DNA from: a virus
Virus record (IMG/VR): IMGVR_UViG_3300030118_000326
Coordinates: 1 to 22,981 of that record
Reading direction: 5' to 3' (one strand)
DNA length: 22,981 nt
Shown here: positions 428 through 21,976 of the stretch, piece after piece
How the letters are laid out: each line of letters opens with the position of its first letter
Position numbering within the stretch: position 1 is the first letter of the stretch
The notes under the pieces: generated by a model
What the model was told of the DNA's origin: nothing
Seen by the model: the letters and a program-made list of their open reading frames with translations, nothing else
Database searches by the model: none
Position numbers and translations under genes: made by a program

Positions 428-2320
428 CTAATAATTTATTTCTTGTATTTTTTTTATTATTTCTGCAGCTTTTTCAGCATCTTTAAAAGTATTAGTAGGA
501 TCAAAATTTATAGCATCTTGCATAGCTTTTGAATGATTCAAAGCTCTTCCTTGTCCAAACTCACCAGCTTCTTGTAAGAAAGAAAAATTTGTTTCCATAT
601 TATTTCTGTATCTATTCATACTGTCTAAAAGTGTCTGCCTAGAAGCTTTTAATTTTTTTTCAACAATTTTTGGGTTAGTAAAAAGATCAAAAGAACCAAA
701 AACTTCTTTAACTATATCCCTATCTAAATTAGAAATGGTTCTTCCTGATTCGCCAAGTATGTCTTTAATCTTTTGGTTTCTTAAAACATTAAGTATTGAT
801 GCTACTTGACTTGCAGCACTAGGATCTCTTTTAACACCAGCAGCTGCAAATGCACTATCTTTAATAATATCAAACTTACCTTTTAAACCTCCAAGCTGTG
901 CAGCCCCTTGTTCTTTTGCTTTTTCTACATATTCTAGAACTTCATTTATTAAAGCTACGGCAGCTCTAGCACCTGAAAAATTACCAGCGTTTTCATTAAA
1001 ATCTATTGATGCTTCTTTAATAGTTTTCAAATCCCTTATCGATGGGCCAGTATCTTTGCCTGTTTGTTTGATTTGTTCTTTTCTTAATTCTATTTCTGCT
1101 TCAGCTTCAGCTGCACGTTTTGCTGTTTCAGAATCTACAAAGTCTGCTGTACCTAAAGGTATGCCCATAAATGATCCAGTCCTTACTAATTGCTTACCCA
1201 TACTGCCTAAAAAGTCTTTGAATTTTTGACCGCCAAAAGTATCTGCAATAGCTAAATCTTTTATGTATTTATCTTCGTCAGCTAAAAATTGATTTCTTTG
1301 CTCTTGAGTCAGCTCAAAAGTAGTATCGTCTAAATCTTCTCTAATCCTATCTTCTTTTTCTTTTTTAGTTAATGTAGATCTATCCACTTTATCTAATGCA
1401 GCTTGTGCCTCACCCTCTTTTATTCTTCGCTCTAAATCAGCTTGGGTATCTACATCAGGGGGAAGCTCATCAACACTATCTTGTGTTTCAATAGTGTTAG
1501 CAGCTATAGTTTCTGTTGGTAATTCTTCAGATACATCAGCTTCCATTTGAGTTTGAGAAGGGACATCTAAATCATCTATTTCGCTTTGTAATCTAGCAGC
1601 TCTGAAAAGATCATCTAAAGATTTTTTGCTTCTAAAACCACTTTGCAAAGCTTCTCCAATATTTTTACCTTCATCTGCTATTGGTGAAGTAAAAAAATCA
1701 TCAATTTTTTTAAAAGGCTCAACTTCATCCCTAGCAATTTTTCTTCTCATATCTCTTGCTCTTTCAGGACTAAATATCGCTAAAAAATCAGGATTGTTTT
1801 TAGCCATATAACCTAATTTTCGATACAAATTCATTAACTCTTCACCACCCTCTACTAAAACATCTTTAGCCATTCTGTAAGGAATTAGTGGATTTCTGTG
1901 CAAATCTCTTATACCCCCTCTATTTTCTAAAGCTTGGCTTATTATTCTTTCTACATTACTACCTAAAAGAACATCAGGACTATTTAACATGCCATAAACA
2001 TCTAAAGTAAAGTAACTATCGCCATTAACTATATTTGATAAATACGAAGGATCGACAGTAATAATTTCACCAGTAGATAGTCTTATTTGGTTTTCGCCTA
2101 ATCCTGAATCTGTAATTACTTCAGGGGTATTTGTTACCACATTATCAATAATGGGATTTACTTCAAACTCAGGTCTTTCAAAACTACCAATACCTATTTC
2201 AGCAGTAGGAGGTGGCATGTTCATTTGTGGTCTTGCTCCGCCTCCGCTTTCACCAATAACAGTAACATCAGGACTTACTGCTGAAGTTTGTCGAAACATA
2301 TTTCTATCAAAAATTGACAT
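428..2320 (-). CDS. Probable internal virion / ejection protein, 630 aa
   Basis: The start is fixed by a TAATG overlap with the stop of the upstream gene. No catalytic motif is visible. Residues 1-60 are Pro/Gly-rich. The middle is strongly acidic and helical (around residues 240-350, many Asp/Glu/Lys and Gln, likely coiled coil), followed by a long charged helical region (AAEAEAEIELRKEQIKQTGK) and a helical C-terminus that ends in EKAAEIIKKIQEINY. Long, soluble, helix-rich proteins placed between the tail nozzle and a giant last gene are typical of podovirus internal core or ejection proteins, which leave the virion with the DNA. I cannot name a family; the role is inferred from composition and gene order. 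Confidence 0.6.
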   Translation of the reverse strand: MSIFDRNMFRQTSAVSPDVTVIGESGGGARPQMNMPPPTAEIGIGSFERPEFEVNPIIDNVVTNTPEVITDSGLGENQIRLSTGEIITVDPSYLSNIVNGDSYFTLDVYGMLNSPDVLLGSNVERIISQALENRGGIRDLHRNPLIPYRMAKDVLVEGGEELMNLYRKLGYMAKNNPDFLAIFSPERARDMRRKIARDEVEPFKKIDDFFTSPIADEGKNIGEALQSGFRSKKSLDDLFRAARLQSEIDDLDVPSQTQMEADVSEELPTETIAANTIETQDSVDELPPDVDTQADLERRIKEGEAQAALDKVDRSTLTKKEKEDRIREDLDDTTFELTQEQRNQFLADEDKYIKDLAIADTFGGQKFKDFLGSMGKQLVRTGSFMGIPLGTADFVDSETAKRAAEAEAEIELRKEQIKQTGKDTGPSIRDLKTIKEASIDFNENAGNFSGARAAVALINEVLEYVEKAKEQGAAQLGGLKGKFDIIKDSAFAAAGVKRDPSAASQVASILNVLRNQKIKDILGESGRTISNLDRDIVKEVFGSFDLFTNPKIVEKKLKASRQTLLDSMNRYRNNMETNFSFLQEAGEFGQGRALNHSKAMQDAINFDPTNTFKDAEKAAEIIKKIQEINY

Positions 2321-3333
2321 TAATAAATTAATCCTCTTGAATCTGTTTGTTGTGGATTATATATATTAACTGCTGGAGTCATTTGTGGTTGTTGATTCTG
2401 ATTTTGATTTGTTGAATATACAGTTGGATCTTGCGGTCTTTGTGCAAATGTATTTATGTTTGGCATGAATTGCGAGAAAGTATTTAAGAAGCTTCCAAGA
2501 CCAACAGCCCTAGGATCAGGTGCTCTGCCAAACTGAGAAGTTATGTTTGCAGTCGTAGGAGAATAAGATGGCAATATTGTCGATAAGATTCGCATAGTTT
2601 CTAAAGGATCATTTCTTTGTGCAGTTGCTCTATTAAATTCTGCTGCGCTTCTTATATCGTCTAATTTTCTTTGTGTGCTGCCAAGACCTAATAAATTCTG
2701 AATACCAGTTTGCGTTAATCTTTGCGTGTCGCCAGCAAGATCTCTAAAATCACCAAACAGATTTCTTCTGTCTGTAATCTCATCTCTAAGTCTAGATATA
2801 GAATCTCTATAACCAGCTTGGCGTATGCCAGCAAGTTCTTTACCTAAACCTCTACTAAATTCCTCTAATCTGTCTTGTGCTCCTAGTCTAGCTCTAGAAC
2901 CAAAAGCAGACTCACCAGCACCTAAAGCGTTAAATCTTCTTTGGTTTTCAGACATATCAAAAGCTTTTACAGCGTCTTTTGTATATTGGTCAATAACCGC
3001 TTGTTGATAGGGATCTTCAAACTTTTTGTAAGCAAAAGGATCTTGTAGATCTCTTATAGCACTAAGTTGATCTTCACCAGACGTTAAGAATCTTTCAAAA
3101 TTACCTATACCACTTCTAAGTCGATCTAAGCCAGCTTGTTCTAAATCAGTAAGATCTGCAAATTTTTGTTCTGGTAAAGGAGTTTCAAATCTTTTTCTAG
3201 CTATTTGTTGGAGTTGATTAATAAAACCTGGAGTCTCTTCTGTACCAAAGAAAAGACTTCTTAGATAAGGATCGCCTACTGTATCAACTACTTGTTGATT
3301 TGGCCTTAATATTGGTCTGCTGTAAATAGCCAT
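2320..3333 (-). CDS. Probable internal virion protein, 337 aa
   Basis: The ATG overlaps the previous stop as TAATG and its own stop overlaps the next start in the same way, so it is embedded in a coupled block. The protein is Arg/Asp/Gln-rich and mostly helical. A central segment (about residues 120-235) with ENQRRFNALGAGES, RLEEFSRGLGKELAG and RRNLFGDFRDLAGD looks like long amphipathic helices. The last 50 residues are low-complexity Asn/Gln/Pro. There is no signal peptide or membrane span. The pattern of N-terminal Pro-rich start, helical core and disordered Q/N tail fits a soluble internal virion protein. The function is inferred from position between two other such candidates; no catalytic motif is seen. 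Confidence 0.6.
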   Translation of the reverse strand: MAIYSRPILRPNQQVVDTVGDPYLRSLFFGTEETPGFINQLQQIARKRFETPLPEQKFADLTDLEQAGLDRLRSGIGNFERFLTSGEDQLSAIRDLQDPFAYKKFEDPYQQAVIDQYTKDAVKAFDMSENQRRFNALGAGESAFGSRARLGAQDRLEEFSRGLGKELAGIRQAGYRDSISRLRDEITDRRNLFGDFRDLAGDTQRLTQTGIQNLLGLGSTQRKLDDIRSAAEFNRATAQRNDPLETMRILSTILPSYSPTTANITSQFGRAPDPRAVGLGSFLNTFSQFMPNINTFAQRPQDPTVYSTNQNQNQQPQMTPAVNIYNPQQTDSRGLIY

Positions 3334-4484
3334 TATGCGTAACCCTCGTTGTATTTTTCAAAAGTTTTCATTAATTTCATCATATTTTTTGCACCTTTTT
3401 TTCTACTTGGTTTACCAGTAGGAGTGAGACATAACACTCCTTTTTCTTTGTGCGTTTTGTCTGGGCTTATTTTATAACCGCCTAATCCTTTGTTGGCAGA
3501 AGCAGTCATAACAAACTCACCATCGGACAACATAGCTGGTATATCATCAGAAGTTCCAGTTCCTGGGCCTTCAGATTCTCCACCATCTCTCATATCTAAA
3601 ACTTCTCCGCCTTCAGCAAAACCAAGATCAAAACCACCTTTACCAAAGGTGCTACCTAATTTTAAATCTGGTCTTAAAGTATCTCTTACATCTTCAAGAG
3701 GATTGTCTCTTTCTTTTTTAGCTGCTAAATAACTTAATATGCCAGCTGGTACTGCTAAACCAGCAGCAGCTCCCATACCTTTGTTATAAAAATTTTGTAA
3801 TCTTTGTTGGTTATAAATATCATCCTCACCCGTAATATTACTTACTAATTGCATCAAAGGATTATTTTGACCTAAACTCATAATACCTGATTGATTACTT
3901 ACATTTTGACTAAGACCACTAAAAGGGTTTATGGCTTTTTTAAAAGAATCAAAAGAAGAAAAAGGATTGCTACCAACTGGTACATTAGGAGCCATTCCAG
4001 GTCTTAATCCGCCAGCTAATCCTCCTAAAGTTCCAGTTAAAGCTCCTGCTAAACCAGATTTTAGTCCTCCACCACTAGCTAATCCTGATAATCCACCACT
4101 TAATGCCATAGATGCAAGTGGCCCTAAACCTGGTATAAACATAGCTCCTATAGGCGCTAATGTTTTGAATAAATCACTTTTTACAACTTTTTTTACTAAG
4201 CCTGTTTGTGCTTTGACTACTTTTTTTACTGGCTTGATTATTTTTTTTACTAATTTTTTGAGAAAAAACTCAGGTAAACCAGAATAAGGATTTATACTAT
4301 TAGAACTGCCAACAACATAATTAGCTGGATTTATACCAGCATCAAGCATATCTTTAAATATCTGTCTTTTAGTAGCTAATGATATAGCTAATGGCGGAAT
4401 AACCATTTCCCCATCAGCAACATGTGCAATTTTGTTATCTTCGAATCTTCCTAAACTTGCAAGACCACTTATTTGTTCATTCAT
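3333..4484 (-). CDS. Putative membrane-active internal virion protein with DGE(F/M)V motifs, 383 aa
   Basis: The gene starts 30 bases after its upstream neighbour and overlaps the next start as TAATG. Residues 74-107 are a cationic amphipathic run (FLKKLVKKIIKPVKKVVK and on). Residues 109-162 are a Gly/Ala/Leu-rich hydrophobic stretch rich in GxxxG spacing (GGLSGLASGGG, GGLAGG), and 236-255 is a second hydrophobic patch. Residues 22-30 read VADGEMVIP and residues 318-328 read MLSDGEFVMTA, apparently two copies of one motif. The second follows GPGTGTSDDIPA, a stretch I recall from many phage virion proteins. The C-terminus is basic. The composition suggests insertion into the host membrane during DNA ejection, with the DGE motifs as possible assembly tags. 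This is inference; nothing here is catalytic. Confidence 0.6.
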   Translation of the reverse strand: MNEQISGLASLGRFEDNKIAHVADGEMVIPPLAISLATKRQIFKDMLDAGINPANYVVGSSNSINPYSGLPEFFLKKLVKKIIKPVKKVVKAQTGLVKKVVKSDLFKTLAPIGAMFIPGLGPLASMALSGGLSGLASGGGLKSGLAGALTGTLGGLAGGLRPGMAPNVPVGSNPFSSFDSFKKAINPFSGLSQNVSNQSGIMSLGQNNPLMQLVSNITGEDDIYNQQRLQNFYNKGMGAAAGLAVPAGILSYLAAKKERDNPLEDVRDTLRPDLKLGSTFGKGGFDLGFAEGGEVLDMRDGGESEGPGTGTSDDIPAMLSDGEFVMTASANKGLGGYKISPDKTHKEKGVLCLTPTGKPSRKKGAKNMMKLMKTFEKYNEGYA

Positions 4485-4514: not shown

Positions 4515-4850
4515 CTACAACTCTATTATTATGCCACCACTACGTTTTACGTCTATTTTCAACGTACCTACTGAGCCAAGCAGTTCAAAACCAGCACCCG
4601 CTACGGTAGGTTCTGTTAACTGAACAAATCTGTTGCCTATATAAGCTTGTAAAGAGCCAACAGTTGTATTCCATATTACATCACCTTCTTGGAAATCTAA
4701 AGAACTTATTTCGCTATCTGTATAGTGTGGAGTCCTATCAGGATCGAAGGTGCCTATATTTAATTCAAGTAATCTAACTAATCTATTGTATAAATCTGGC
4801 GAGACATCTCTTGTGGCTAAAGGTAGAGCAGTTTTGATTAATCTTGTCAT
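4515..4850 (-). CDS. Small conserved virion-type protein next to the tail nozzle, 111 aa
   Basis: The ATG at 4850 overlaps the stop of the 620-aa tail protein as TAATG, so the two are probably made together. The N-terminal 35 residues (ending RLVRLLELNIG) look helical. The rest is strand-rich, with FQEGDVIWNTTVGSLQAYIG followed by a C-terminal strand VKRSGGIIIEL. I recall similar NTTVGxLQxY segments at the tips or hinges of small phage tail proteins, but cannot name a family. Its coupling to the nozzle gene suggests a neck or tail accessory role; this is inference. Confidence 0.55.
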   Translation of the reverse strand: MTRLIKTALPLATRDVSPDLYNRLVRLLELNIGTFDPDRTPHYTDSEISSLDFQEGDVIWNTTVGSLQAYIGNRFVQLTEPTVAGAGFELLGSVGTLKIDVKRSGGIIIEL

Positions 4851-6712
4851 TAGCGTCTGCCATCTGTTTGCACATCTAGTCTTGTATCACCTAATCTCCA
4901 ACCCACACCATTATTACCTGAATCACCATCATTTGATTTGATTTTAAATACCACTTGCCTACCTCTACCCCTAATGTGTGATTGTTTTGTTGTAGGCGAT
5001 ACTGTAGAAGTAGCAACTGAAGAAAGACTATCGCCAGGGAAGTTTCTCACTTTGGTTTCTATATTTACATTAGTCGAAGTATCAGAGGTTAGAAACTTAA
5101 CATCAGGTATTAATCTTCTTAGAAAAGAAAAGCTTTCTCCATCTTGTATATCTAAATCACCTGATTCAATAAATACATTTTGCATCTCGCTACCGTCATC
5201 ATTAAATCCTACTTCGTGTTGATATAAGTAATTATTACCTGTAGCTTGTGGATAAGCTGAAACACCAATATCTAACCAAGCTGTTCTTGTTAACTGTCCA
5301 TAATACCAAACCCCTTCTTGATAATTATAAATGACATATCTATCTATTTCCTGAGATGAGCTAGATGGATAAAACCAACCTATTTCAGAATGCTTTTTAT
5401 TTGTAAAAGCGAAAGTTTTCAGTCTTTGCTCTGTATTGAAATCAGAAAATACATAATTTTTAACTGTACAAGGTAGTTCGCTAACGGATCCTTTATATAC
5501 ATAAAAAGCATCTTTACCCATAAAATAAACACCCTCAGGGCCATTAATACAAGCATTAGGGCCTATAAGTCCTGTAGCTTCATCAATAAGGTTAATAGCA
5601 AAAACCAAAGGTGGCCCAATATTTGTCATACTATAAATAGAAGTATCTGTAAAAATTATAATTTCTTGTCTTGATTTAATACCGCCAACTATTTGTGAAC
5701 CTGATGAAAGTCTTACACTACCAGCTGTATTAGTGCTTCTTGGCTCAAAATCTAATAAATCTTCAGAAGAAGAAAAAGCAACCAACATAGGATCTAAAGA
5801 GCCAGTTCTTGCACCAGCTGAAATTGGGTCTGCACCTAGTACTATTAAATGTCTGTTAGTCTCAGAAGTTAAAACTTGTATGGCTTTAGTAGGAACTAAA
5901 TTAGCTCCAGTTATTGAGCTTAATTCTTGAGCTCTTGTGCCTGTACCTGATGATTCGTCCCATCTAAATATGCCACCCCCTCTAACAGCCATTACTAAAT
6001 CTTCACCATAGTTATCTTGCGACCATATTCTTAGTTGATTTGCAGAAGATAGTGGACTAGAAGATCCCCACCCCCCTGCACTCCAAGCACCTGAACCCCA
6101 ACCAGTACCATCTACAAATACATCTAGACCAGTTACTATTTGATATACGCCATTTGCACTACCGCTTGTATTATCGCTAGAAGTTGCTGTTACTGCATTA
6201 CCGCTAGTATCGACTGCATTTATAAAATACTCATTACCGTTTGTAGTAGATATAGATTGTATTTGGTACTCTTGATTTAAAACTGTAGCAGTTATTGCTC
6301 CGCCTAAAGTACTAGCTCCGCTAAAGGTTACAAAATCATTAGGGTTAGCGCCATGATTATTATCTGTAACTTTAATAGAACTTGAACCATCTGCTACTTT
6401 GGTAAAAGTTATAGATCCTGATACTGTTCTTCTTATGGGAGTTATATCTTCAAAAGTGTTACCTGATTGTATGTAAAATTTTAAATGTGTACCTATACCT
6501 AAATATTTACTACCATCTAAAGAAATCCAATTAAATATAGATCTTGCAGTACCTTTGAATGTAGCTGATAAAAGTTTCGCCCAACCGCCAAATTTTTCAG
6601 GTAAACCCATCCTAAATCTCACTAAGTTACAATCGAACCAACCTCCTTCATTAGAATAAGAAGTGCCCTCTCTATCTATACCTGGTTTGAATTTATATTT
6701 AATTAAAGCCAT
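4850..6712 (-). CDS. Tail nozzle / DNA-stabilisation protein candidate, 620 aa
   Basis: The protein opens with MALIKYKFKPGIDREGT and then GGWFDCNLVRFRMGLPEKFGGW, an N-terminal pattern I associate with podovirus tail hub or nozzle proteins (P22 gp10-like, T7 gp12-like). The body is almost entirely beta-strand with repeating blocks (LGIGTHLKFYI, YFMGKDAFYVYKG, RYVIYNYQEGVWYYGQL), as expected for a beta-propeller. There is no signal or membrane segment. Such proteins close the lower end of the short tail and hold the packaged DNA. The start overlaps the last 14 bases of the nuclease gene. It lies more than 10 kb from the adaptor genes with which it would assemble. The family assignment is from memory of sequence style and needs profile confirmation. 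Confidence 0.65.
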   Translation of the reverse strand: MALIKYKFKPGIDREGTSYSNEGGWFDCNLVRFRMGLPEKFGGWAKLLSATFKGTARSIFNWISLDGSKYLGIGTHLKFYIQSGNTFEDITPIRRTVSGSITFTKVADGSSSIKVTDNNHGANPNDFVTFSGASTLGGAITATVLNQEYQIQSISTTNGNEYFINAVDTSGNAVTATSSDNTSGSANGVYQIVTGLDVFVDGTGWGSGAWSAGGWGSSSPLSSANQLRIWSQDNYGEDLVMAVRGGGIFRWDESSGTGTRAQELSSITGANLVPTKAIQVLTSETNRHLIVLGADPISAGARTGSLDPMLVAFSSSEDLLDFEPRSTNTAGSVRLSSGSQIVGGIKSRQEIIIFTDTSIYSMTNIGPPLVFAINLIDEATGLIGPNACINGPEGVYFMGKDAFYVYKGSVSELPCTVKNYVFSDFNTEQRLKTFAFTNKKHSEIGWFYPSSSSQEIDRYVIYNYQEGVWYYGQLTRTAWLDIGVSAYPQATGNNYLYQHEVGFNDDGSEMQNVFIESGDLDIQDGESFSFLRRLIPDVKFLTSDTSTNVNIETKVRNFPGDSLSSVATSTVSPTTKQSHIRGRGRQVVFKIKSNDGDSGNNGVGWRLGDTRLDVQTDGRR

Positions 6713-7130
6713 TTTTTATTTTATTAAGAGCATCTTGCAAACTTTCTTTTGAATCAATGTTTTTCATAAGCGAGTCTTTAAAAGTTATTTTTGTTCTTTT
6801 GCCATCCTTAAAAATTTTAAATATTATTGTATTGTATTCCAAACAATAAAAAGCATAAAGGTCAACCATACCTTTTTTATAGTCTCTAAGCTTTGTATTA
6901 GCCCCTCTACGCATGTCAAAACACCAGTTTACTCTTTTATGAGTTTTATGACACATTTTCTTCTTAGAGCAGGTTTTTACTTGGCACTTGTACATAATGT
7001 CATTTATTTCAAATATTATGTCAGCATGACTACCATGTGGTAAAACGTGTACTGTATCGCTTTCTAAACTTAAAAAACTAGCTACAGCGTATTCGCCAGA
7101 TCTTCCAATACGTTCTGTTTGGCGAGTCAT
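6699..7130 (-). CDS. PD-(D/E)XK-type nuclease, 143 aa
   Basis: Visible motifs are E13 in GRSGEYAVASFL, D37 in HADIIFE, and Q50-V-K52 (CQVKTC). This E...D...QxK order is that of the PD-(D/E)XK fold in which the motif Glu is replaced by Gln, as in the family that includes the I-Ssp6803I homing endonuclease. A downstream block with Y84 and D90 (DYKKGMVDLYAF) also fits that family. Residues C49, C54, C60, H61, H64 and C70 are clustered and could bind a metal; that is only a possibility. The gene starts 2 bases after the lysozyme stop and runs into the nozzle gene. A role in host DNA degradation, packaging or homing-like transfer cannot be told apart from sequence alone. Confidence 0.7.
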   Translation of the reverse strand: MTRQTERIGRSGEYAVASFLSLESDTVHVLPHGSHADIIFEINDIMYKCQVKTCSKKKMCHKTHKRVNWCFDMRRGANTKLRDYKKGMVDLYAFYCLEYNTIIFKIFKDGKRTKITFKDSLMKNIDSKESLQDALNKIKNGFN

Positions 7131-7132
7131 AT

Positions 7133-7555
7133 TTAAAAAGGGTATTCATCAGACTCCATCATCTTAGAAAGCCTAACAGCTCTTTGACCAACTTGGCCAG
7201 CCCATTTACTGTTTAACATTTCTTCTGAGGCTTTAGTAAAATTTTTGTTTTTAATATGTTCAAGCGTCTTTTCAAATTTAAACAATCTGTTCCCCATATT
7301 AAAATACATATCAATCAAAACAGTTTTTCTTACTTCTGATAGATCTGAAAAAAAATTTAATTTATTTTGCAAAACAATTACAGATTTATCTACATCATTT
7401 TTAAGTAGATATTCTGCTTCTTCTTCTGTTATACCTCCTCCTAATTTTTTATCAATAAGCCTACCAAAACCAATAGTTTTGTAACCTTCACTACAATCAT
7501 AACAATGGCTCACAAAGCCTTCATGTAGCTTCAATAAATTGATAAGTTCTTGCAT
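7133..7555 (-). CDS. Endolysin, T4-type lysozyme (GH24) with Cys in the catalytic Asp position
   Basis: Hydrolyses the MurNAc-GlcNAc bond of peptidoglycan at the end of infection. The N-terminal catalytic region HEGF...YDCSEGYKTIGFGR aligns directly with T4 lysozyme DEGL...YKDTEGYYTIGIGH. That gives E12 as the acid, C21 where T4 has D20, and T27 for T26, so the spacing E-x8-C-x5-T is kept. Cys at this place is known to be functional in some relatives (for example P1 Lyz). A second Cys, C18, lies three residues before it. At 140 aa it is slightly shorter than T4 lysozyme (164). There is no signal peptide or N-terminal anchor, so it should need a holin, and two small membrane proteins are encoded immediately upstream. 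Confidence 0.92.
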   Translation of the reverse strand: MQELINLLKLHEGFVSHCYDCSEGYKTIGFGRLIDKKLGGGITEEEAEYLLKNDVDKSVIVLQNKLNFFSDLSEVRKTVLIDMYFNMGNRLFKFEKTLEHIKNKNFTKASEEMLNSKWAGQVGQRAVRLSKMMESDEYPF

Positions 7556-7765
7556 TTAAAAAAAGATAACTTTTGTTAAAAATCCAGTTATTCCTAAAAA
7601 TATAGTGAGAGAGAAAATTAAACTATTTCTAATTAATTTATTCAGAGAAGTTATACCATTTTCTATATTTTCTAATCTTCTCCAATTTTCTCGCCAACGC
7701 TGTTCACAAGCGGCTTCATGTGCTGAAAGTCTTTTGTCAACTTCGTTTACAGTTGATCTTGCCAT
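7556..7765 (-). CDS. Holin-like small membrane protein, 69 aa
   Basis: The start at 7765 overlaps the stop of the 44-aa gene as TAATG and has a clear AAGGAG about 8 bases upstream. Residues 1-46 are charged and helical (DKRLSAHEAACEQRWRENWRRLENIE, probably coiled coil). Residues 48-69 form one hydrophobic span that reaches the C-terminus. This architecture, with a cytosolic coil plus a C-terminal anchor just before the endolysin, matches XhlA-like phage lysis proteins and other accessory holins. It may be the holin itself or a partner of the 44-aa protein. Assignment rests on topology and position, not on a recognised signature. Confidence 0.65.
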   Translation of the reverse strand: MARSTVNEVDKRLSAHEAACEQRWRENWRRLENIENGITSLNKLIRNSLIFSLTIFLGITGFLTKVIFF

Positions 7766-20742: not shown

Positions 20743-21015
20743 TTATTTCTTTTTACTGTTTAGATTTAAAGCTCCGCCCTTAGATTTTTTCATCATAGAA
20801 CCCCCTTTTGATTTCTTCATTAAAGAACCACCTTTTGATTTCTTTAATATAGAACCACCTTTAGATCTCTTCATCATAGATCCGCCTTTTGATTTTTTCA
20901 TCATAGCTCCGCCTTTTGATTTTTTCATCATGGCTCCGCCCTTAGACTTCTTCATTAAAGCTCCGCCTTTGGACATCTTTCTTACGCTATAGCCTTTAGT
21001 TTTCTTATAAGTCAT
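20743..21015 (-). CDS. SKGG-repeat lysine-rich protein, 90 aa
   Basis: After a short start (TYKKTKGYSVRKM) the protein is made of repeats of nine residues, K-K/R-S-K-G-G-A/S-M/L/I-M/L. There are seven full units and a partial one, then ALNLNSKKK. Charge is strongly positive, with a Met/Leu pair in each unit. It has no known fold. It follows two basic proteins with GGFV/G-x-GA motifs that resemble the SKGG pattern, so a common role is possible. Nucleic-acid binding inside the capsid, or a Met-rich internal-virion peptide, are possible; neither is shown. Confidence 0.6.
   Translation of the reverse strand: MTYKKTKGYSVRKMSKGGALMKKSKGGAMMKKSKGGAMMKKSKGGSMMKRSKGGSILKKSKGGSLMKKSKGGSMMKKSKGGALNLNSKKK
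20771..20974 (-). repeat. Tandem 27-bp coding repeat
   Basis: Seven full 27-base units plus a partial unit, in frame within the SKGG-repeat gene. Units differ at several positions, mostly silent or conservative. Each full unit codes for nine residues. Confidence 0.85.
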
Positions 21016-21022
21016 TTTTACC

Positions 21023-21481
21023 TCAAGATATACTGGTTACTTTTTTACGGTCTTTCATGATGGCACCGCATCCATTGGCAACAAATCCGCCATTACTCAT
21101 TTTAACTCTATTTTGTTTCGACATAGCACTTTTAATTGCTTTATCTCTTGAGCCAAAATATTCATCTTTAGATGATTCTATTTTGCCATCGCCATCATAA
21201 TCTCTTTTTGCTTTTTTCATCGTAACCTCGCCTCCAGCGTTTAGTTTGTTAGAAACATTTATTGGTTTGCCTTTTCTTCTTGGGTTGGGATCTTTCTTTC
21301 TTTTTCTAGCTACTAGCTTTGCTCTTTCTTCTTTACTAAGACTGTTTGCTCTATTCCTTGGTAAACACTTAGGTTTTCCTTCTGATTTTTTTCTATCTCC
21401 ACATTTGCCTTTTATAGAACCATCAGCTCCAATTCTTACCCAATCTTCGTCTAACCAACTTTGTAATTGTCCTTTACTCAT
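21023..21481 (-). CDS. Basic protein with GGFV/GCGA C-terminus, 152 aa
   Basis: The start QLQSWLDEDWVRIGADGSIKG is followed by CGDRKKSEGKPKCLPR and basic helix RANSLSKEERAKLVARKRKK, an arrangement I recall from marine phage and virus proteins, though I cannot name the Pfam entry. Next is DYDGDGKIESSKDEYFGSRD, which resembles an EF-hand calcium loop. The C-terminus reads NGGFVANGCGAIMKDRKK. The ATG overlaps the upstream TGA as ATGA. Cys residues (CGD...KCLP) may form a metal or disulphide site. Function unknown; a capsid-internal basic protein is possible. Confidence 0.6.
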   Translation of the reverse strand: MSKGQLQSWLDEDWVRIGADGSIKGKCGDRKKSEGKPKCLPRNRANSLSKEERAKLVARKRKKDPNPRRKGKPINVSNKLNAGGEVTMKKAKRDYDGDGKIESSKDEYFGSRDKAIKSAMSKQNRVKMSNGGFVANGCGAIMKDRKKVTSIS

Positions 21482-21696
21482 CTTATTTTCTCTTTTAAAA
21501 CTGCTCCTTGTCCAGGAATAGAAACAAAACCACCATTTCTTTTTTTTGATTTACTAGCATAATTTGGATCCTTACAATATCTAGAAGCTGCTAAATTAGC
21601 ATAAGCACTTGGATAGACATCAAATGTTCTTTTAGCCCAAGCCTTACCTTCTGGACATATTTTTCCTTTACTTTTTGGTTTTTTATTATCACTCAT
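21478..21696 (-). CDS. Small basic protein with GGFV/GQGA C-terminus, 72 aa
   Basis: I chose the ATG at 21696 (MSDNKKPKSKG), one base after the stop of the 92-aa gene, rather than an in-frame ATG at 21735 that would overlap that gene by 38 bases. The conserved block KICPEGKAWAKRTFDVYPS followed by AYANLAASRYCKDP is one I recall from small marine phage proteins. The end is NGGFVSIPGQGAVLKEK, related to the end of the next protein. Two Cys residues are present. The stop overlaps the next ATG (ATGA). No function known. Confidence 0.6.
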   Translation of the reverse strand: MSDNKKPKSKGKICPEGKAWAKRTFDVYPSAYANLAASRYCKDPNYASKSKKRNGGFVSIPGQGAVLKEKIR

Positions 21697-21697
21697 A

Positions 21698-21976
21698 TTA
21701 ACAATCCCAATCTTTTCTAGCCCAATAGTTTGCACTACACCTATCGGTAGTGCCTTTCATACCAGCACTCCTTGAGCAATAAGATTTTTTTCTTGATTTA
21801 TCCCTTTTGTGCATACCTAATTTAGCATCACCAAAGGTAATTCTTTTTACTCTTTTGCTTTCGCTACTACACCCCATAACGAAAACTACTTTTCTTTTTT
21901 TTCCATAGCCAGGCTCCCCTTTACGGAGAGCTCTTGGACTATTTAAAGTTACTTTTTTGCCTTTATACTCAGCCAT
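21698..21976 (-). CDS. Small Lys/Arg-rich Cys protein, 92 aa
   Basis: Layout: KKVTLNSPRALRKGEPGYGK, then a strand KVVFVMGCSSES, VKRITFGDAKLGMHKRDKSR, and a Cys-rich C-terminus (YCSRSAG...DRCSANYWARKDWDC). The blocks K-G-E-P-G-Y-G-K, I-T-F-G-D and the Y-W-x-x-x-W end are a recurring pattern I recall from marine phages and large viruses. Four Cys residues (one in VMGCSS, three in the last 30) may hold a metal or disulphides. It overlaps the previous stop as TAATG. Function unknown. Confidence 0.6.
   Translation of the reverse strand: MAEYKGKKVTLNSPRALRKGEPGYGKKRKVVFVMGCSSESKRVKRITFGDAKLGMHKRDKSRKKSYCSRSAGMKGTTDRCSANYWARKDWDC

Follow-up and report, generated by a model that had tools for sequence, protein, structure and literature searches.

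According to the sections of the literature consulted here, T7 gp14 and DEV gp73 are both small membrane proteins encoded beside larger ejection proteins; the former is assigned to the outer membrane, and for the latter the same location is argued (PMC8954989, PMC10925440). Among long-tailed phages, T5 expels its tape measure protein; in the consulted part of one study, the C-terminal residues that were modelled lie in the hub, and an adjoining 46-residue hydrophobic stretch is proposed to enter the outer membrane (PMC10038345). Here we analyse a 22,981-base virus record, IMGVR_UViG_3300030118_000326 (positions 1 to 22,981; hereafter the window), whose main genes lie on the minus strand, and within it a gene for a 383-residue protein (3333..4484, minus, ATG start; taken from the list of open reading frames (ORFs), with relatives found by profile). 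We consider this protein somewhat more probably than otherwise, at roughly 55%, to be an envelope-acting ejection protein of a marine podovirus, expelled ahead of the DNA and held by a C-terminal hook docked in the tail tip. Its tape-measure-type end is unexpected for a podoviral ejection protein, and its N-terminal domain is undescribed.

The gene is the first of an ejection-gene run, in the place of T7 gp14. Its stop codon overlaps the start of the next gene in the sequence TAATG (3331..3335, minus), and that gene (2320..3333, minus) encodes a 337-residue protein matching the PHROG family phrog_4287, ‘DNA ejection protein’ (expect value, E, 1.8e-4). A third gene (428..2320, minus) encodes 630 residues, matches no family below E 0.2 and is, by position only, probably an ejection gene as well. 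On the other side, beyond a small gene for 111 residues with weak PHROG matches only (4515..4850, minus), lies the gene for a 620-residue tail ‘stabilization’ or virion structural protein (4850..6712, minus; phrog_3287, E 1.2e-63), whose relatives in named phages (DSL-LC04, CRP-901, HTVC027P and others) are labelled stabilization, virion structural or hypothetical protein. Across the relatives, a stabilization homologue lies upstream on the same strand, 293–1847 bases away, at 64 of the 65 loci with at least 3.5 kb of upstream sequence. By iterated profile, the downstream gene belongs to one family at 93 of 96 loci, and at the other three the ORFs are cut by the contig end; this result supersedes an earlier, noisy test with a loose regular expression (44/90). 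The stop codon shares a base with the next ATG or GTG in 76 of 100 family genes. One locus, L028, duplicates the window and was excluded from these synteny counts. The downstream family matches phrog_4287 in 17 of 25 aligned members and includes Sm_phiM5_27, whose record is noted as ‘detected in phage particle proteome’; neither domain of the 383-residue protein was found in the phiM5 region that we fetched.

A 55,002-base record (G001) is nearly identical to the window and encodes the 383-residue protein with 100% identity, in two pieces at the ends of the record; there, an ORF of 971 residues comes after the 337- and 630-residue genes. The families found across the window and this record are portal, terminases, major head protein, SU10-type adaptors, stabilization protein and fibres, of which the record itself encodes portal, terminase, major head protein, two adaptors and one stabilization protein. 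No tail-tube family was present among the ORFs scanned, which comprised part of those in the record. The genome is podovirus-type.

The protein begins with a domain of 73 residues (4266..4484, minus; bounded by alignments and AlphaFold2), which contains the motif DGEMV (residues 24–28; 4401..4415, minus) and ends in NPxxGLPEF. Residues 74–107 (4164..4265, minus), FLKKLVKKIIKPVKKVVKAQTGLVKKVVKSDLFK, form a lysine-only amphipathic helix, delimited by hydrophobic moment and predicted structure. The maximum moment over 18 residues, 0.81, was equalled once when the segment was shuffled 5000 times and peaks at the helical angle of 100 degrees, and AlphaFold2 predicts a helix at 75–101 with a predicted local distance difference test (pLDDT) score of about 50–60. 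A Gly-rich, almost uncharged run follows at residues 108–162 (3999..4163, minus), opening with the turn LAPIGAMFIPGLGP, in which P111 is conserved at 90% or more in alignment A2. Its only charged residues are K142 and R161. In its best 50-residue stretch, 49 residues are drawn from GASLIVFMTP, which none of 2000 protein shuffles equalled, and residues 108–165 hold eight GxxxG motifs; the glycine content of that stretch (16/50) is less unusual when taken alone, being equalled by 37 of 2000 shuffles. The preliminary description of this DNA had reported both the amphipathic stretch and a hydrophobic Gly-rich region of about 50 residues behind it, and these measurements confirm the anatomy that it described as real. 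It had also named prediction as a soluble core as an outcome that would count against a membrane role, and with a pLDDT of 31–44 over residues 111–160 the segment is not confidently predicted to be such a core.

A second hydrophobic segment, which the preliminary description did not mention, occupies residues 236–256 (3717..3779, minus) inside a predicted helix at 223–260. It includes the most hydrophobic 19-mer of the protein (237–255), whose 19-residue hydrophobicity score (KD19) of 1.56 exceeds the 1.44 reached in the Gly-rich run; at either value, a membrane span is a borderline call. The C-terminal, tape-measure-type module (residues 291–383; 3336..3614, minus) consists of GPGTGTSDDIPAMLSDGEFVMTA followed by a helix, two strands and a helix, and contains DGEFV (residues 321–325; 3510..3524, minus).

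Relatives were collected from viral contigs in a first search (27 loci) and in a second, alignment-based scan, from which the best 80 of 533 confirmed relatives were taken, two of them already among the earlier loci. Profile counts cover 118 records, that is, 117 loci and the window. Profiles of residues 1–107 and 284–383 detected the N-domain in 105 ORFs and the C-domain in 111, with both present in 102. Because the C-module peptides SDDIPAM and SDGEFVM served as seeds for the second scan, finding the C module at those loci, and to a smaller extent finding both domains, is partly by construction; the counts for amphipathicity, lysine-to-arginine ratio and synteny are unaffected by this seeding. 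One of 92 distinct sequences lacks the NPxTG pattern and was left out (n = 91).

The helix is the constant part of the family. For each of the 67 distinct 20-mers that follow NPxTGxxEF, no more than 5% of its own shuffles equal the real hydrophobic moment, and for 60 of them no more than 1% do, whereas 27 of 300 control 20-mers with at least six lysines or arginines pass the 5% level. These 67 segments contain 446 lysines, 18 arginines and 7 acidic residues in 1340 positions, as against 1642, 1210 and 3572, respectively, in the 32650 positions of the remainder of the same proteins. The net charge over the 34 residues after the motif is at least +5 in 87 of 91 relatives. A KD19 of at least 1.3 is reached within 100 residues of the helix in 51/67, compared with 36/506 background ORFs; the controls in both tests are mechanical ORFs rather than curated genes. 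A helix followed by a hydrophobic run is thus the usual design. The Lys-rich, nearly acid-free amphipathic helix is conserved by selection across the family, and by its sequence it would fall among cationic amphipathic membrane-active helices, a functional class that does not imply homology. The middle of the protein is variable, with a mean information of 1.9–2.2 bits at positions 121–260 as against 3.2–3.6 bits in blocks 16–35, 57–73 and 291–335, and the distance from the basic helix to the C-terminal motif ranges from 209 to 580 residues. A LysM domain stands in this variable middle in two of 48 members (L044, near residue 191; L109, near residue 243). At one locus (L015:6001-8131), a run of FSSLLGGGSGTGG repeats divides the family gene into two frames that overlap, through either a frameshift or an assembly error.

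All 48 aligned members match tape measure PHROG families through the C-terminal module, and a search of PDB sequences returned tape measure chains 8rk3 (E 2.1e-4) and 8zdo (E 3.1e-4). The former is the JBD30 protein according to its paper; the latter we take to be Douge gp16, judging from chain length and name. The 8zdo chain contains two copies of a GPGTG.SD..GEF type motif, at about 958–1000 and 1413–1448. The window protein carries the pattern GPGTGTSD..IPA.LS.GEF, present in many, not all, tape measure proteins. With the C-terminal part of a relative (L017), 1323 phage records were matched at a lax E limit of 10, and 53 of the 60 matches listed carry a tape measure or tail measure label, many being near-duplicates and lying at E 0.5–3. 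Judged from these comparisons, the motif appears otherwise mainly in tape measure proteins of long-tailed phages. The open-licence literature that we searched yielded nothing for GTGTSD together with tape measure. AlphaFold2 predicts a helix at 328–334, strands at 337–341 and 351–355 and, on the monomer model, a C-terminal helix at 361–382, with pLDDT of 71–87 over 331–380. In JBD30, the motif falls in a hook, itself predicted, that has been proposed to keep the tape measure protein in the tail tip once it has been expelled.

The N-terminal domain has invariant residues G12, R13, D16, H21, E26, G59, N65, P66, G69, E72 and F73 (alignments A4, 22 sequences, and A5, 15 sequences), and AlphaFold2 predicts helices at 36–48 and 53–56, with pLDDT of 82–93 over 31–50. 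For the window protein’s domain, Pfam gives no match and PDB sequences none below E 0.5. Its model aligned to no PDB chain with Z of at least 2 (0/14) and to no BFVD entry at E 0.001 or better (0/47), the best BFVD match being an uncharacterised 409-residue phage protein (E 0.03, probability 0.99). Nothing was found for HVTPGE in the open-licence literature searched. The domain, with the pattern AH(V/L)xxGExVxP...SINPxTGxPEF, is undescribed.

Thirteen loci came from one pattern scan of assemblies from bacteria and archaea. In two (L120, L121), the N-domain, the C-domain and the downstream family are all present, and in other bacterial loci the N-domain heads varied C-terminal parts (L122-L127, L145-L161). 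In some alphaproteobacterial assemblies, it precedes peptidoglycan hydrolases. Above the Pfam cut-off, the domains behind it are Peptidase_M23 (L159, E 6e-20), Glucosaminidase (L159, 4e-8), DUF6973 (L153, 9e-18), Hydrolase_2 (L126, 1e-6) and Gly-zipper_Omp (L132, 1.6e-8), and PG_binding_1 stands ahead of it (L129, L131 twice, L132). Matches below the cut-off are CHAP (L131), Peptidase_M74 (L159), PBECR1 (L132), Lnb_N (L122) and a second Hydrolase_2 (L155), and nine of the 20 bacterial N-domain proteins scanned had no Pfam match at E 0.01. The domain is rare, occurring in four of 289 genomes of the class with the centre genome included (three further ones among 288), and five bacterial assemblies, mostly of Rhodospirillaceae, hold two to seven matches each. 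A role for the N-domain in delivery to or through the envelope is supported, not proven, by this company. On a more speculative reading, which we consider improbable, the 383-residue protein would carry a membrane-penetrating core between two modules for docking or delivery. If both modules do the same job, a single delivery signal would be common to ejection proteins of podoviruses, tape measure proteins of siphoviruses and bacterial envelope-attacking effectors.

Several further features of these loci were observed. PG_binding_1, the N-domain and Gly-rich segments are combined in L129-L132, with C-termini in L131 (CHAP) and L132 (PBECR1 nuclease) that match under the cut-off, an architecture that resembles that of polymorphic toxins. 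Other bacterial N-domain proteins end in Gly-rich tails. By eye, L164:1357-2886 appears to fuse the N-domain to sequence resembling the downstream ejection family, and a stabilization-like ORF lies just upstream in L164 and L166. A contractile machine was considered as a carrier of the bacterial proteins and rejected: neither the type VI secretion system sheath (PF05943) nor the phage sheath (PF04984) was found in any of five assemblies, which may be incomplete. A VirB4-type ATPase was present in one of the five.

DGEMV and DGEFV had been described as two copies of one motif that flank the membrane segment. Both motifs are present; they are parts of two different domains whose similarity is suggestive, and ‘flank’ is loose because DGEFV lies about 160 residues beyond the Gly-rich run. 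In a profile alignment of residues 1–73 with 284–383, the two fall in register unforced, with a score of 11.8 that nine of 40 column shuffles reached. When GE is used as the anchor, the two domains share D at -9, A at -5 and V at +3, and 366 of 20000 permutations reached the register score, a figure that ignores the choice of anchor. When N-domains were scanned alone, tape measure PHROGs appeared weakly in two of ten (phrog_8927, E 0.21; phrog_991, E 0.44). Homology of the two motifs is suggested by these results but not proven.

With a stabilization gene upstream and the ejection family downstream, an envelope-acting ejection protein is the best reading of the 383-residue protein. Virions would carry it and release it ahead of the DNA. 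The lysine-rich amphipathic helix would bind the anionic membrane surface, and the Gly-rich run and segment 236–256 would insert in the envelope or line a passage through it, most likely across the outer membrane by analogy with T7 gp14. The C-terminal hook would stay docked in the tail tip, aligning the tail lumen with the passage; a tape-measure-type hook, as proposed for T5 and JBD30, suggests that the C-terminus stays in the tail while the remainder enters the envelope. The LysM domains in two members fit a stay in the periplasm, and the position of the N-domain at the head of bacterial peptidoglycan-active proteins counts for an action on the envelope. The preliminary description had proposed a DNA channel across the host inner membrane, an interpretation that is partly supported: the ejection-gene position and the conserved helix agree with it, while the inner membrane is not favoured because T7 gp14 is placed, and DEV gp73 argued to be, in the outer membrane.

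Other observations weigh against this reading. The AlphaFold2 model of the whole protein is of low confidence (mean pLDDT 55.5, predicted template modelling score 0.24), and it matched no BFVD entry at E 0.001 or better (0/18) and no aligned PDB chain with Z of at least 2 (0/9). No known ejection pore protein was matched by sequence or fold in Pfam, PHROGs, PDB or BFVD, and virion proteomics or a membrane assay was found for no family member. A KD19 of 1.3 or more is reached in the middle of 71 of 91 distinct relatives and never in the other 20, which means that the conserved function must extend beyond a Gly-zipper channel. In regions from 11 named phages, the C module occurs in six and adjoins the downstream ejection family in five, and the N-domain was detected only in the metagenome-assembled DSL-LC04, weakly (E 0.0012). 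HTVC104P gp81 (L038:5855-7156) carries the C module without the basic helix, from a gene between portal and capsid, which shows that the module also occurs outside tails and ejection genes.

The strong positive charge of the helix and its near-lack of acidic residues would also suit an internal virion protein that is not membrane-active: its lysine helix would serve to bind packaged DNA, or else an acidic partner such as portal or scaffold, and its Gly-rich part would be a flexible linker. Low pLDDT and the persistence of the basic helix in some relatives where the Gly-rich run is weak agree with this possibility, which is doubtful but deserves more weight than the other alternatives. The regular hydrophobic face and the near-absence of arginine fit membrane-active helices better, however, and such a protein would account less well for the excess of hydrophobic runs after the helix over background ORFs or for the LysM domains. 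Alternatively, the C module might recruit an assembly factor to the portal or tail during morphogenesis, with no part in ejection. The gp81 gene position and the occurrence of the module in PHROGs of several kinds are in keeping with this, but the window family adjoins ejection-family genes rather than portal or scaffold genes, and the basic helix and hydrophobic run would be left unexplained; we judge it unlikely.

The C module, common to tape measure proteins, and the annotation of the DSL-LC04 relative as one raise the question of whether this is a genuine tape measure protein from a long-tailed phage. The scanned ORFs include no tail-tube family, and the spacing between helix and motif varies widely among relatives, which leaves this idea barely credible. 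Hardly better placed is a lysis or host-takeover membrane protein, holin-like, acting late in infection rather than in the virion. The cationic and hydrophobic composition would suit it and a lysozyme gene lies at 7133-7555, yet the gene is coupled to the ejection family, the protein carries a tape-measure-type module, and a small gene beside the lysozyme gene (7556-7765), with a hydrophobic end, is the better holin candidate by position.

Elsewhere in the window, a PD-(D/E)XK nuclease-like gene (6699-7130; PF11645, E 4.9e-5, just under the cut-off) lies between the genes for the stabilization protein and lysozyme. A 90-residue protein of (M)KKSKGG(A/S)(M/L) repeats (20743-21015), beside other small basic proteins (21023-21976), is perhaps DNA-condensing. 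In the near-identical 55 kb record, a GroES-like ORF was seen by eye between portal and scaffold-like genes (L118:3415-3906).

To our knowledge, the means by which many short-tailed marine phages cross the host envelope are largely unassigned at gene level. In the text covered by a term search of one pelagiphage paper (PMC9599517), neither ejection nor tape measure is mentioned. The family offers a testable candidate for the first envelope-penetrating protein of such phages, and its active segment is so short that it could be made as a synthetic peptide. A tape-measure-type hook in a podovirus suggests a common device by which long- and short-tailed phages retain their penetration proteins in the tail. 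Through the N-terminal domain found in both, phage ejection is linked to peptidoglycan-active proteins of bacteria.

DSL-LC04 WJZ48115.1 (759 residues, annotated as a tail tape measure protein) is among the closest described proteins. In the same order as the window protein, it has the weakly matching N-domain, then a basic amphipathic stretch, a Gly-rich run and the C module, and its gene is followed by the downstream ejection family; it differs in having double the length and tandem repeats in its middle part. HTVC027P gp82, from a Pelagibacter phage, and 023Pt_psg01 URG13127.1 share the Lys-rich start, the hydrophobic Gly-rich part and the C module, and their genes lie directly upstream of the same ejection family, but no N-terminal domain was detected in them. 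Like T7 gp14, DEV gp73 and P22 gp7, small first ejection proteins of the outer-membrane pore kind, the 383-residue protein is small, has hydrophobic segments and is encoded by the first ejection gene, with larger ejection genes after it. Judged by position and composition, its likeness in function is greatest to T7 gp14 and DEV gp73. It is the product of the first small gene after a nozzle or stabilization gene, in what we take to be the gene orders of T7 and P22 around the tail genes. Unlike a true relative of gp14 or gp7, it shows no detectable sequence or fold relation to them in Pfam, PHROGs, PDB sequences, or BFVD and PDB folds. With the tape measure proteins JBD30 gp46 and Douge gp16 it shares the C-terminal GPGTGTSD..GEF module, and hydrophobic parts of siphophage tape measure proteins (JBD30 gp46, Douge gp16, T5 pb2) are thought, in the portions of the literature consulted, to insert in the host envelope. 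Those proteins fill a long tail, whereas the 383-residue protein is short and lies in a podoviral ejection operon, flanked by a stabilization gene upstream and the ejection family downstream instead of tail-tube, chaperone and distal tail genes. Set apart from tape measure proteins by gene context and from gp14 and gp7 by sequence, it is therefore best classified as a protein that would work like both groups rather than as a member of either.

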